Shown: piece by piece, positions 36,132 to 45,930 of the stretch
Layout: each line of letters opens with the position of its first letter
Position numbering within the stretch: the first letter of the stretch is position 1
Assembly: GCF_019431455.1 (NCBI RefSeq)
Contig: NZ_JAHYSR010000005.1
Location: 1-64,000, forward strand
Direction: 5' to 3'
Source: Paracoccus bogoriensis
Lineage (GTDB): Bacteria > Pseudomonadota > Alphaproteobacteria > Rhodobacterales > Rhodobacteraceae
Length of the DNA: 64,000 bases
Program-made: the position numbers and the translations under genes
The notes under the pieces: model-generated
The model's database searches: none
What the model saw: the letters and a program-made list of their open reading frames with translations, nothing else
What the model was told of the DNA's origin: nothing

Positions 36132-36611
36132 TCAGTTGCCGCGCATGATCTCGTCAAGGCGGCGACGTTCGGCCTCGGAGAGGCGGGCAGGCTCTTCGGG
36201 CCGGGCCTGGGCGCGGCTGGCCAGAAAGCGCCAGGCGACGATTATCGCGATCATCCCCATCAGGGGCGCCGACAGCCAGAGCAGCCAGTTGATCCCCTCG
36301 GCGCGCGGCTCGAACAGGACATATTCGCCAAAGCGGTCGGCGACATTGTCCAGAACCTCGGCGTCGTTGTCACCCGCGACCAGCCTTTCGCGGACATAAA
36401 GCCGCAGGTCACGGCTGATCGGCGCGTTCGATTCGTCGATGGTCTCGCCCGCACAGACCGGACAGCGCAGCTTCTGCGACAAGGCGCGGGCGCGGCTTTC
36501 CAGATCGGCATCCTCCAGCACCTCGTCGGGCTGGACCGCCATGACGGGCGCGGCGGGCGCCAGAGCCAGCGCCAGCGCCAAGGCCAGCGTATGAAGGACC
36601 GCGCGCCTCAT
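36132..36611 (-). CDS. ccmH: Cytochrome c-type biogenesis protein CcmH
   Basis: The 159-residue protein has a signal peptide (about 1-25), a three-helix domain with the redox motif LRCPVCAGET (Cys50, Cys53) and a C-terminal membrane segment (about 108-130). It reduces apocytochrome c thiols or holds the apoprotein for heme attachment with CcmF. The protein is the short CcmH/CycL form, so the CcmI part must be separate. Its start overlaps the ccmF stop by four bases. Confidence 0.94.
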   Translation of the reverse strand: MRRAVLHTLALALALALAPAAPVMAVQPDEVLEDADLESRARALSQKLRCPVCAGETIDESNAPISRDLRLYVRERLVAGDNDAEVLDNVADRFGEYVLFEPRAEGINWLLWLSAPLMGMIAIIVAWRFLASRAQARPEEPARLSEAERRRLDEIMRGN

Positions 36612-38575
36612 TCCGCCGGCACCGCGCCACGAGGGCGCGCATCGCGCGCAGCCCCCGCCGCGACCCGATGGCGGCGGTCGGTCAGGCTGATCAGCCCGCC
36701 GAGCGCCATCAACATCGAACCCGCCCAGATCCAGCTTGCAAAAGGCCGGATATAGCCGCGCACCGCCCAACCGCCATCGGGCTGCTGGTCGCCCAGGACC
36801 AGATAGATATCGCGAAAGAAGCCGTAATGGATCGAGGCCTCGGTCGTCGGCATGTTCTGCACCGTATAGACGCGCTTTTCCGGGTTCAGCATGGCAACCG
36901 GGCGCCCGTCACGCGTGACTTCCAGCCTGCCCATGGCCGAGATGTAATTCGGCCCGTCCACGCGATCCACCGAGCGCAGCACGATCTCGTAGGGGCCAAG
37001 CGGATAGGGTTCGTCGATCTGGGCGACGCGGATGTCCTCGACCTGCCAGGCGGTGATCAGGGCGATGGCGATGAAGGTGACGCCCAAACCCGCGTGAGAC
37101 ACGGCCTTGCCCCAATCGGCGCGTGGCAGGCGCCTCAGCCGCGACAGGCCGGAACTGCCTGTGCGGTGGACCAGTTCGGCGATCGCGCCAAAGACCAGCC
37201 AGGCCCCCAGCCCCGCCCCGATCACAGCCAGCGCCGAACGCCCGGTCGAGACCGCGAAGACCAGCGCCATCACGGCCGCCGTCAGCACCAGCGCGCCGCG
37301 CAGCGGCCGCAGGCTGCGGCCGAGGTTGCCGCGTTTCCACGGCATGATCGAGCCGATGGGCAGCACCAGCGCCAGCACCACCATGAAGGGCGTGAAGGCC
37401 TGATTGAAGAAAGGCGGCCCAACCGAGAGGATGCGCCCCCAGAGCATCTCTGCGATCAAGGGCCACATCGTGCCGACAAAGACCACGAAAGCCGACACGG
37501 ACAGCAGCACGTTGTTCAGCACCAACGCGCCCTCTCGCGAGATGGGCGCAAAGACGCCCTTGGCCGTCATCCCGGGCGCGCGGATCGCATAAAGCGTCAG
37601 CGCGCCGCCCACGAAAAAGACCAGGATCGCCAGGATCACGATGCCGCGCTCGGGGTCGTTGGCGAAGCTGTGGACCGAGGTGATCAGCCCGGACCGCACG
37701 ATGAACGTGCCGATCAGCGAGAATCCGAAGGCCATGATCGCCAGCAGGATCGTCCAGCTTTTCAGCGCCTCGCGCTTTTCGACGACGATGGCGGAATGCA
37801 GCAATGCGGCGGCCAGCAGCCAAGGCATGAAGCTGGCGTTTTCCACCGGATCCCAGAACCAGAACCCGCCCCAGCCCAGCTCGTAATAGGCCCACCATGA
37901 CCCAAGCGCGATGCCGATGGTCAGGAACACCCAGGCCGCCAGAGTCCAAGGTCGCACCCATCGCGCCCAGGCAGCGTCCACCCGCCCCTCGATCAGGGCG
38001 GCGACGGCAAAGCTGAATGCCATCGAAAGGCCAACATAGCCGAGGTAAAGAAAAGGCGGATGGAAGGCGAGGCCCGGATCTTGCAGCAGCGGGTTCAGGT
38101 CGCGCCCGTCAAAGGGCGGGTTGCCCATTCGCCAGAACGGGTTCGACGTGAAGATGATGAAGGCGTAGAAGGCCGCCGTGACCGAGGCCTGCACCGCCAG
38201 AACCCGCGCCCGCAAAGTGGGCGGCAGGTTGTTGCCGAACAGGGCCGCCGCCGCACCGAACAGGGCAAGGATCAGCACCCACAGCAACATGCTGCCCTCG
38301 TGATTGCCCCAGACACCGCTGATCTTGTAGATCAGCGGCTTCGACGTGTGCGAATTCGCGTGGACCAGCCTGACCGAGAAATCCGAGGTCACGAATGCCA
38401 TGGTCAGTGCGCCGAAGGAAATCAGCATCAGCATCAACTGCGCCAGCGCCGCGGGCCGGGCGCTGTCCATCCAGCCGTGCCAGCCTTTTGCCGCCCCGAC
38501 CATCGGCACCGTCATCTGGAACAGCGACAGCATGAAGGCCAGGATAAGGGCCAGGTGGCCGAATTCAGCAATCAT
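36608..38575 (-). CDS. ccmF: Heme lyase CcmF
   Basis: This 655-residue polytopic inner-membrane protein attaches heme b to apocytochrome c. The tryptophan-rich WWD motif lies at about 234-252 (GWGGFWFWDPVENASFMPW), and conserved periplasmic His loops such as VWGNHEGS (about 88-95) and FHPPFLYLGY are present. The ATG at 38575 matches the family start. It is separated from ccmE by the holin-endolysin pair, all on the same strand. Confidence 0.96.
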   Translation of the reverse strand: MIAEFGHLALILAFMLSLFQMTVPMVGAAKGWHGWMDSARPAALAQLMLMLISFGALTMAFVTSDFSVRLVHANSHTSKPLIYKISGVWGNHEGSMLLWVLILALFGAAAALFGNNLPPTLRARVLAVQASVTAAFYAFIIFTSNPFWRMGNPPFDGRDLNPLLQDPGLAFHPPFLYLGYVGLSMAFSFAVAALIEGRVDAAWARWVRPWTLAAWVFLTIGIALGSWWAYYELGWGGFWFWDPVENASFMPWLLAAALLHSAIVVEKREALKSWTILLAIMAFGFSLIGTFIVRSGLITSVHSFANDPERGIVILAILVFFVGGALTLYAIRAPGMTAKGVFAPISREGALVLNNVLLSVSAFVVFVGTMWPLIAEMLWGRILSVGPPFFNQAFTPFMVVLALVLPIGSIMPWKRGNLGRSLRPLRGALVLTAAVMALVFAVSTGRSALAVIGAGLGAWLVFGAIAELVHRTGSSGLSRLRRLPRADWGKAVSHAGLGVTFIAIALITAWQVEDIRVAQIDEPYPLGPYEIVLRSVDRVDGPNYISAMGRLEVTRDGRPVAMLNPEKRVYTVQNMPTTEASIHYGFFRDIYLVLGDQQPDGGWAVRGYIRPFASWIWAGSMLMALGGLISLTDRRHRVAAGAARDARPRGAVPAE

Positions 38576-38678: not shown

Positions 38679-39218
38679 CTAACGGCGCAGCGAGGCCGCC
38701 CAGTCCCGCAGCGCGGCATTGTCGGCGAAATCGTCTGTTGGCCGCCCCGCGACCGTGTGATCCGCTGCCAGAGCGCCAGCGGCAGGCGCTTCGGTTCGGT
38801 CGGGCTGGCGGACTGGCCAGACACGGTTCCGCAGGTAATGCGCCTCGCGCGCGCCGAAGTAGAAGCCGACGATCGCCCCCAGAAGCCACCAGAGCGGTTC
38901 GGGCACCATCTGAAGCCCCTGCATCCGCAGGCCGAAGCCATCAGGCTCGACCATCGCATAGATGAACAACCCCATCGTCCCAAGCGCCAGCAGCGGACGC
39001 GGCAGCCGGTTCAGGCCGTTCACGAAGGCATCGAAACGTCCTTCGCGCTGGATCAGGAATTCCTGGCCGTGCTGGGTCAGGGCACGAGCATGGGCTTCCT
39101 CGTCCAGCTCCATGCGGCGAGTGGCGTTGCGGGTAAAAACCTCGGCCATGCCGGTTGCGGCGTGGCCAAGCGCTGTGACGGTGGGCGCTGCGCCCAGGAT
39201 ACGGCCCATCACCCCCAT
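38679..39218 (-). CDS. Holin family protein (GTA-holin type)
   Basis: The 179-residue protein has an amphipathic N-terminal half and two clear membrane segments (about 73-91 and 108-124); a weaker first helix could make a third. It ends in a charged cytoplasmic tail. It fits the family of holins described for gene-transfer-agent release in Rhodobacteraceae. Holins form inner-membrane holes that let endolysin reach the wall. GAGGG eight bases upstream supports the ATG at 39218, overlapping the endolysin gene by 10 bases. No phage structural genes are near. Confidence 0.75.
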   Translation of the reverse strand: MGVMGRILGAAPTVTALGHAATGMAEVFTRNATRRMELDEEAHARALTQHGQEFLIQREGRFDAFVNGLNRLPRPLLALGTMGLFIYAMVEPDGFGLRMQGLQMVPEPLWWLLGAIVGFYFGAREAHYLRNRVWPVRQPDRTEAPAAGALAADHTVAGRPTDDFADNAALRDWAASLRR

Positions 39219-39820
39219 GCGGCGACCCTCGCACGATGCTGCGCCGCCGTCAGGTGATAGCGGGGCGAGATGAATTCCTCGGCGCGGGTAATCCAGCCGC
39301 CCTTGCCCCCGGATTTGGTGCGCGCGAATTTGCGACTGGCCGGGCGCTGATCGGCCAGCGCGTAGTAATAGTTGCGCCGCGCGATCCCGTAGGCATCCGC
39401 CAGATGGTCAGGCGCGGCCTCGGCGGCGGCGCGGGCTGCCGCGATGGTCAGAGGGCCCACGATCCCGTCATCTTTCGCGGCGAACCCCATCCGGGTAATC
39501 AGGCGCTGCAGGATCTTCACCGCGTTGGTGCCGGCATTCACATACATGTCGAACAGGCTTGGCTGCAGCGCGACCGGCAATTCGCCAAGCCTGGGGCGGC
39601 GGAAGTAATGTTCGACAAGGATCTGCTCGGCCTGGGCGCGGGTCAGGGCGCGCACGTCCTGCACATCGATCCGCCCGTCCTTGTTCAGATCCAGCCCGAG
39701 CGAGCGCATCGTGCCGATGGTGACGCCGAAATTCGTGGCTCCGCCCGGATCATCCGGATCATTGACGAAGCCCCCCTCGCGACGCACGATTTCTCGCGCG
39801 ATCTCTTCCACGCTTTTCAT
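39209..39820 (-). CDS. GH108-family endolysin (N-acetylmuramidase)
   Basis: The 203-residue protein has the GH108 catalytic segment REGGFVNDPDDPGGATNFGVT with the catalytic Glu15, and a C-terminal peptidoglycan-binding-3-like region around ITRMGFAAKDDGIVGPLT. There is no signal peptide, so release depends on the holin encoded next. The start at 39820 has GGGGAT upstream. The pair resembles the R. capsulatus GTA lysis genes (endolysin rcc00555, holin rcc00556). A perfect CtrA-type box lies 63-78 bases upstream. Confidence 0.85.
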   Translation of the reverse strand: MKSVEEIAREIVRREGGFVNDPDDPGGATNFGVTIGTMRSLGLDLNKDGRIDVQDVRALTRAQAEQILVEHYFRRPRLGELPVALQPSLFDMYVNAGTNAVKILQRLITRMGFAAKDDGIVGPLTIAAARAAAEAAPDHLADAYGIARRNYYYALADQRPASRKFARTKSGGKGGWITRAEEFISPRYHLTAAQHRARVAAWG

Positions 39821-39882
39821 GGCAATCCCCGTGAAACCCGCCGCGCGCAATCGCGGCATCGAGGGATGCTGCCGGGAAGGGC

Positions 39883-39898
39883 TTAACCCTTTCTTAAC
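39883..39898 (-). promoter_or_regulatory. CtrA-type binding box upstream of the lysis genes
   Basis: TTAAC-N6-TTAAC (TTAA at 39883 and 39894, seven bases between the tetrads) matches the full alphaproteobacterial CtrA consensus. It is in the 93-base gap between ccmE and the endolysin gene, 63-78 bases before the endolysin ATG, a position suitable for promoter control. In GC-rich DNA this 16-base pattern is unlikely by chance, and I noticed no other full match in the window. Confidence 0.65.
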
Positions 39899-39913
39899 CC
39901 GCCGCGCGTTGCC

Positions 39914-40372
39914 TCAGCTTTCGGGATCCTTGTAATGGCCCGTCGCCTTGAGCGTTTCGATCACCTCGCGCGGCATGTAGGTCTCGTCATGCTTGGCCAG
40001 GATCTCGCGTGCCTCGAAGCGTCCGTCGCGATACCAGCCCTTGGCGATGGTGCCCTGCCCCTCGCCGAAGAGGTCCGGGCGCGGAGTCTGCCCCACGTAA
40101 GAAACCGGGATCTCGACCGCGCCATCGGTCAGCACGAAGTCAAAGGCAACGCCGGTGCCGTTCACGATCGAACCTTCGACCACCAGCCCGCCAAGCTGGA
40201 AGAACTCGTCCGGGTCGGGCGGGGCCTCGCTGACCTGGCTGGGCGAGCGGTAGAGGTTGATGCCGTCGCTGAACCCGTATCCGATCAGCCCCGTGGCAAC
40301 GATCAGCGCGGCGGTCGCCGCGAAGATCACCTGGATCCGGCGCTGTTTCTTCAGGGATTTCATGCCCGCCAT
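39914..40372 (-). CDS. ccmE: Cytochrome c maturation heme chaperone CcmE
   Basis: The 152-residue protein has one N-terminal membrane anchor (about 13-33) and a periplasmic OB-fold domain. Heme binds covalently to His128 in LAKHDETYMP, with Tyr132 as the axial ligand. It passes heme from CcmABCD to CcmF. GGAGGG lies five bases before the ATG at 40372; a second ATG three codons on is also plausible. It follows murI by 16 bases. Confidence 0.95.
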   Translation of the reverse strand: MAGMKSLKKQRRIQVIFAATAALIVATGLIGYGFSDGINLYRSPSQVSEAPPDPDEFFQLGGLVVEGSIVNGTGVAFDFVLTDGAVEIPVSYVGQTPRPDLFGEGQGTIAKGWYRDGRFEAREILAKHDETYMPREVIETLKATGHYKDPES

Positions 40373-45847: not shown

Positions 45848-45930
45848 CAGAAGGCGATCATCAGCGTATTCGCTCATCACCTTCTACCTCCCTGTTGGAC
45901 TTGGGCCGGGCCTTGTGCCCGGCTTTTTTT
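45848..45930 (+). ncRNA. Candidate small regulatory RNA between lysR and purL
   Basis: The 287-base gap holds a nested hairpin (GAAGG 45850-45854 with CCTTC 45880-45884, inner AGCG-TATT-CGCT at 45863-45874) and an unpaired linker with ACCTCCC (45886-45892) complementary to Shine-Dalgarno sequences. A strong intrinsic terminator follows. A weak sigma-70-like pair (TTGAAC 45814, CATAAA 45835) could start transcription just before the first stem. No open frame fits. The layout resembles anti-SD small RNAs of Rhodobacteraceae, but homology was not tested. It might instead be only the lysR 3' end. Confidence 0.45.
45905..45930 (+). terminator. Intrinsic terminator before purL
   Basis: GCCGGGC (45905-45911), loop CTTGT, GCCCGGC (45917-45923), then seven thymines. 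It is the clearest rho-independent terminator in the window. It ends either the candidate small RNA or the lysR transcript and lies 85 bases before purL. Confidence 0.85.

Follow-up and report, generated by a model that had tools for sequence, protein, structure and literature searches.

The release of gene transfer agents (GTAs) is fatal to the producing cell, whose lysis genes are thought to kill it for the release of gene-transfer particles, and keeping these genes off in all other cells is therefore a central question. How might this be achieved at the locus described here? The window, that is, the whole stretch of DNA that was analyzed, covers 64 kb of a 3.0-Mb draft genome. On its minus strand, murI and ccmE are followed by a 93-base gap, then by the genes for a GH108 muramidase and a 3TM holin, and finally by ccmF and ccmH, with the main features as follows.

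39914-40372, minus strand: ccmE (PF03100, 3.8e-24), upstream of and co-directional with the endolysin gene, a possible source of read-through
39209-39820, minus strand: endolysin, a GH108 holin-associated N-acetylmuramidase (PF05838, 7.2e-26; PF09374, 8.7e-22; NF040573)
38679-39218, minus strand: holin, 3TM, GTA-release type (PF11351 GTA_holin_3TM, 1.5e-27)
36608-38575, minus strand: ccmF, co-directional, downstream of the holin gene (PF16327, 5.2e-114, on 36608-38515; TIGR00353 on 36611-38575), with the start codon placed at 38575 by choice

The initial annotation had recognized an endolysin-holin pair preceded by a 93-base gap, and both points were borne out. The gap, at 39821-39913, separates ccmE from the endolysin gene, whose ATG is at 39820-39818, and the pair is identified by PF05838 with PF09374 and NF040573 on the one hand and by PF11351 on the other. 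The match of the endolysin to NF040573, “holin-associated N-acetylmuramidase,” reaches 356.7 bits (cut-off, 240), and PF11351 is described as “Holin of 3TMs, for gene-transfer release.” Judged by these families, the endolysin and holin belong to the proteins of GTA release, like rcc00555/rcc00556 of Rhodobacter capsulatus. The 5′ end of the holin gene overlaps the 3′ end of the endolysin gene. The nearest named relatives of the endolysin gene are from Paracoccus (94% to a Paracoccus MAG), and the genus surveyed below is accordingly taken to be Paracoccus. All 81 loci compared have a relative of the holin behind the endolysin gene. In 75 of these 81, ccmE is upstream and co-directional, being the nearest upstream among six genes searched, and the lysis pair is mostly located among cytochrome-c-maturation genes.

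Does the genome encode the other parts of such a system? CtrA is encoded (NF045991 equivalog, 406.6 bits; cut-off, 350), and contig 44 carries an RcGTA-like cluster comprising terminase, portal, prohead protease, tail tube, DUF2460, baseplate hub, NlpC/P60, GTA_TIM, and DUF2793 genes. With PF08299, the single model tried, gafA was not found in the genome: the one strong match is the DnaA family itself, and the neighborhoods of two sub-threshold matches (E values of 0.162 and 0.957) held nothing convincing as gafA by eye. Three GTA_TIM genes are present in the genome, on contigs C44 (the RcGTA-like cluster), C19, and C29; the one on C19 lies downstream of a GpA-type terminase gene and is perhaps part of a related prophage.

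What does the gap itself contain? Rfam gave no match within the gap region at gathering thresholds. Elsewhere in the window, at 45878-45930 on the plus strand, a match to SorX (RF02784), a singlet-oxygen-resistance small RNA, scores 47 bits, with a gathering score of 46.6. The gap holds one conspicuous DNA motif.

39883-39898, read on the plus strand: full CtrA-type box TTAA-N7-TTAA, TTAACCCTTTCTTAAC (pattern match; genus-wide conservation)

A complete CtrA consensus had been reported at this position, 63-78 bases upstream of the endolysin ATG, and it is found there and at that distance, as the sole full TTAA-N7-TTAA of the window (1 match versus 0.01 expected). TTAACCCTTTCTTAAC likewise has a single match in the 64 kb and none in 100 dinucleotide shuffles. 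The reading of the box as TTAAC-N6-TTAAC is correct for the plus strand, but this runs against transcription, and the endolysin strand reads TTAAG-N6-TTAAG. Genome-wide, TTAA-N7-TTAA occurs at 7 places in 3.0 Mb, versus 6 for the reversed pattern; the motif is not over-represented, and a bare match is for this reason weak evidence. The strength of the case for the box comes not from the match but from its conservation among related sequences.

How well, then, is the box conserved? Of 125 genomes from the genus, 124 have the endolysin gene, and these yielded 122 gaps, with G085 (a fragment) and G100 (at a contig edge) left out. The initial annotation had proposed that its reading would fall if the tetrads were not conserved in close relatives. 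A full box is found in 110 of the 122 gaps and one mismatch in the remaining 12, so that all 122 are within one mismatch of it and the reading withstands this check. Across the family, 258 of 295 genomes (294 genera) have an endolysin match, and 88 gaps were taken from the 256 matching genomes of other genera, largely from those ranked highest by similarity and not as a random draw; L263 was left out because its genome is already in the genus set. Within this set no gap has a full box, 10 have one mismatch, and 78 have two or more, while a TTAA half-site is present at -75 to -30 in 77. Mononucleotide-shuffled gaps gave a full box in 0 of 6100 and TTAA at -75 to -30 in 293 of 4350. Could the tetrads be chance AT-rich words or the site of another regulator, as the genome-wide count so near the reversed control might suggest? 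The fixed spacing kept in 110 of 122 genomes, in which neighboring positions vary, and the failure of shuffled gaps to produce a single full box make this highly improbable.

Among 80 named relatives, a full box precedes the endolysin gene in 30 of 32 Paracoccus loci (which overlap with the 122-genome set) and in 0 of 48 others. In the 211 kb of the Paracoccus loci, all 30 full boxes lie within the gap; the 310 kb of the 48 other loci contain one, outside the gap. When the full box is mapped onto a tree of endolysin plus holin from these 80 loci, it requires 3 changes, versus a mean of 24.4 for shuffled labels (0 of 500 as low). These three may be read as a single gain, in the Paracoccus clade (support, 100/98), followed by two losses. 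From the half-sites in other genera and the three-change tree, it would most simply follow that the Paracoccus lineage completed an ancestral half-site to a full box. Such a history fits the putative CtrA half-sites described for the R. capsulatus rcc00555/6 promoter (PMC9638019). The absence of the full box outside the genus also fits the lists given for Dinoroseobacter shibae, in which CtrA sites among the GTA genes are predicted at gafA, Dshi_1585, and Dshi_2210; in the excerpts of that paper, the endolysin/holin pair is named only as quorum-sensing-induced and not among the CtrA sites (PMC6473078).

The conserved box, the encoded CtrA, the RcGTA-like cluster, and the GTA-release families of the two proteins together support the link between this lysis module and a cell-cycle or GTA regulator that had been suggested at the outset. 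The gap probably contains a CtrA-activated promoter dedicated to the GTA lysis pair (probability of about 0.8). That GTA lysis depends on CtrA is already known in R. capsulatus and is not new: transcription of its endolysin is reported to require CtrA and GafA, and GafA to bind the lysis promoter (PMC6363796). What is new is a precise putative DNA target for CtrA, nearly fixed across one genus. The RcGTA lysis operon rcc00555/rcc00556 likewise consists of endolysin and holin, is CtrA/GafA-dependent in its endolysin transcription (PMC6363796), and has reported CtrA half-sites (PMC9638019), but in Paracoccus the full two-half box is nearly genus-wide, the R. capsulatus promoter being compared here by its published description and not by its sequence. 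The R. capsulatus gafA promoter has the same type of box, TTAAC-N6-GTAAC, which as a rule lies 65-71 bases ahead of the start codon (63-78 here); it differs in serving another gene and in that transcription there is said to start at the CtrA site itself (PMC6363796), whereas the start predicted here is downstream of the box.

A profile anchored on the proximal TTAA, built from 120 gaps of the genus and 77 of other genera, shows what surrounds the box.

39903-39912, minus strand: GCAACGCGCG, a conserved element lying upstream of the box (CGnRCG in the family; anchored profile)
39866-39871, minus strand: predicted -10 hexamer CAGCAT (nAnnnT), offsets 15-20 (anchored profile)
39859, minus strand: putative transcription start, offset of about 27, 7 bases past the last -10 base (from the -10-like pattern)

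Two genus and 11 other sequences without the anchored TTAA are absent from this profile and from the SD pairing, MFE, and swap tests below, and L294, for which no start codon was found, is counted in the gap survey and the profile and not in those three tests or the ATG-anchored one. The layout in the genus is fixed as GCAACGCnCG-N5-TTAAC-N6-TTAAC-N10-nAnnnT, and this spacing holds while the distance of the box from the start codon varies from 42 to 91. The GCAACGCGCG element lies 17-26 bases upstream of the proximal TTAA, with 9 of its 10 positions at 91-98% in the 120 genus gaps; its two CG steps are at 93-96% in the 77 gaps of other genera. At the distal half-site, at -11, TT stands at 96-97% in the genus and at 37 and 58% in other genera. 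Within the -10 hexamer, the A at offset 16 and the T at offset 20 reach 98%/98% in the genus and 79%/88% in other genera. A search of the genome with CGNNCG-N16-TTAA-N12-ANNNT returned the lysis promoter and one other place (C44:152734-152776), and the reversed control returned 1. As to what might bind the upstream element, GafA is a candidate, at the level of a guess. The GafY/GafZ elements of Caulobacter, in the form available from the literature, were tried as its counterpart and by eye do not match.

Might the box instead serve ccmE? In Paracoccus acridae (L034) and P. aerius (L036) no ccmE was found within 3 kb upstream, yet the GCAACGCGCG element and the full box are kept, so the promoter is that of the lysis pair rather than of ccmE; a stem of the kind described below is kept as well. 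Regulation of ccmE was set aside on these two loci and on L056, where ccmE was likewise not found upstream and the lysis pair retains both the element and the full box. The upstream neighbor in P. acridae and P. aerius resembles CinA by eye.

Provided that the predicted start is right, the box is centered at about -32 from it and overlaps the -35 region. A repressor could act there, and for phages it has been proposed that CtrA defers lysis (PMC9437464), so bound CtrA might keep the promoter shut, with lysis upon CtrA loss. In R. capsulatus DE442, however, the endolysin transcript drops to the basal level when ctrA is missing, and its rise upon gafA overexpression is smaller in a ctrA knockout (PMC6363796). 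Repression by CtrA is accordingly judged quite unlikely, and activation remains the preferred reading. In that scheme, phosphorylated CtrA would bind the full box, probably together with the GTA activator GafA, and would recruit RNA polymerase to a weak -10 element, and endolysin and holin would be made only in late-stage GTA-producing cells.

How would the pair stay silent in RNA that reads in from ccmE? The leader offers a possible answer in two segments predicted to pair.

39862-39873, minus strand: hairpin 5′ arm, upstream of the putative start, predicted to sequester the SD (folds; family-wide swap tests)
39821-39830, minus strand: hairpin 3′ arm, containing an SD-like GGGG before the endolysin ATG (folds)

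In the predicted folds, the bases just 5′ of the endolysin ATG, including the SD-like run of G, pair with the -10/start region at offsets of about +15 to +28 (putative start, +27). Folding of 81 leaders gave a mean z of -1.85, with 35 below -2, and in MFE folds a stem of at least 4 pairs joins the -10/start region to the SD region in 115 of 120 genus and 72 of 76 other sequences. Considered by itself, the hairpin of the window is unremarkable (25 of 200 shuffles do as well; z, -1.10), and the claim for the stem is founded on the set of sequences and not on this single hairpin.

Do the two arms change together? In a swap test, each 5′ arm was paired with its own 3′ arm and with the 3′ arms of other species. 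In the genus, own arms gave -15.36 kcal/mol versus -12.93 for swapped arms (z, -10.1; n = 119, one further genus sequence being absent; 0 of 2000 permutations), and in the family, -16.18 versus -11.28 kcal/mol (z, -15.3; n = 76; 0 of 2000); the segment borders were fixed after the folds had been inspected, and, as the sequences are related and so not independent of one another, the z values are no probabilities. With other segment pairs, the z values were 0.1 and -1.9 (genus) and -0.8 and -1.7 (family). When the test was anchored on the ATG and redundancy was reduced, z was -6.7 for the genus and -13.6 for the family (n = 85 each). At the gene starts of the 81 loci, z was -8.2 for the endolysin, 1.0 for the holin (10 non-redundant sequences only), 1.3 for ccmE, -1.5 for murI, and -4.0 for ccmF, so that the ccmF control is not flat (0 of 5000 permutations). 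The upstream folds of murI and the endolysin are similar in mean z (-1.79 versus -1.80), the swap signal of murI being weak. Sequestration of the SD by an upstream arm is thus a prediction backed by covariation, with ccmF also positive among the four other gene starts. The covarying stem signal before ccmF (start at about 38575) in relatives is perhaps a terminator after the holin gene.

The pairing of the SD itself can be compared with that in shuffled sequences, and the respective values are 0.71/0.56 for the endolysin, 0.58/0.50 for the holin, 0.55/0.53 for ccmF, 0.52/0.53 for ccmE, and 0.44/0.53 for murI. Mean SD pairing, which for read-through RNA is 0.85 in the genus and 0.84 in the family, is 0.46 and 0.52, respectively, for RNA from the putative start; the same comparison in shuffled leaders gives 0.73/0.57 and 0.67/0.54, respectively. 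The drop exceeds 0.3 in 79 of 120 genus and 40 of 76 family sequences, versus 28% and 19% of shuffled leaders.

In the mechanism proposed, RNA reading in from ccmE would pair its -10/start region with the ribosome-binding site of the endolysin gene and be silent, and RNA started at the CtrA promoter, being without the 5′ arm, would be translatable. The competing explanation, which disputes this lock and not the CtrA promoter, has the promoter acting without translational control and the stem arising as a by-product of the ccmE 3′ end, either a weak terminator or an RNA-stabilizing stem. The usual position of ccmE as the nearest upstream gene among those searched speaks for this, as does the ccmF signal. 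A 3′ arm that covers the SD and ends a few bases from the ATG, with no U run after it in the gaps inspected, is less easily explained this way, as are an increase in SD pairing at the endolysin that is smaller or absent at the other four genes and stems that persist where ccmE was not found upstream (for example, L034, L036, and L080). A mere by-product is therefore considered rather doubtful, and an RNA lock on translation, on top of the CtrA promoter, is somewhat favored. The lock fails if the true starts lie at least 15 bases upstream of the predicted one. Because the two lysis genes overlap, a blocked endolysin SD could shut off the holin as well, through a putative coupling.

The two levels together would form a fail-safe in which read-through RNA silences itself and only RNA from the CtrA promoter can be translated, with Paracoccus having hardened the switch by completing the half-site; the balance tips slightly toward this view. 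There is a precedent of sorts in phage T4, where long upstream transcripts of the lysozyme gene e hide its ribosome-binding site and late promoters give translatable RNA without the 5′ part of the structure (PMC3014915). The lock proposed for the lysis pair shares this logic by analogy, and kinship is not claimed; unlike gene e, the promoter here is of the CtrA type, not T4 late, and the translational effect is predicted. If the fail-safe is real, the T4 lysozyme strategy arose independently or was retained from an ancestral prophage, and the lock, if real, would account for the way in which lethal genes are tolerated in a housekeeping neighborhood. The pairing of the -10/start region with the endolysin ribosome-binding site across the family is likewise new. 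The excerpts on rcc00555/rcc00556 mention no SD-sequestering stem (PMC6363796, PMC9638019), and in the open PMC texts searched no hairpin or SD lock on a GTA endolysin, no genus-wide full box, and no covarying promoter-embedded stem was found. In Caulobacter, another alphaproteobacterium, GTA particles are likewise released through lysis of the host (LypABC), with the difference that, according to the paper describing it, there are no holin-endolysin homologues (PMC13236601).

Where else does the box occur? The other six full boxes of the genome accompany an AraC/DJ-1-type regulator and Hint-domain protein, a glycosyltransferase, a PAS protein, an RTX-repeat protein, a YifB/comM-like gene, and a cckA-like kinase, the last named with the proviso that CckA models score below cut-off and the protein is cut by the locus end. 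The gene adjacent to that of the PAS protein resembles a sensor kinase by eye. A relaxed search added ctrA and dprA, each preceded by GTAAC-N6-TTAAC, and a PAS_5 protein gene, preceded by TTAAC-N6-GTAAC. For ctrA, dprA, the cckA-like and YifB/comM-like genes, and the two PAS genes, the box and a plausible start codon are 40-55 bases apart, the starts having been picked with the box in view. A CtrA-type box is thus common to DNA-uptake genes (dprA and the YifB/comM-like gene), the regulator gene ctrA, and the GTA lysis genes. The full box of the RTX-repeat protein gene lies upstream of it (L004:1501-2518); in R. capsulatus, the RTX protein rcc00280 has been called an RcGTA repressor (PMC9638019).
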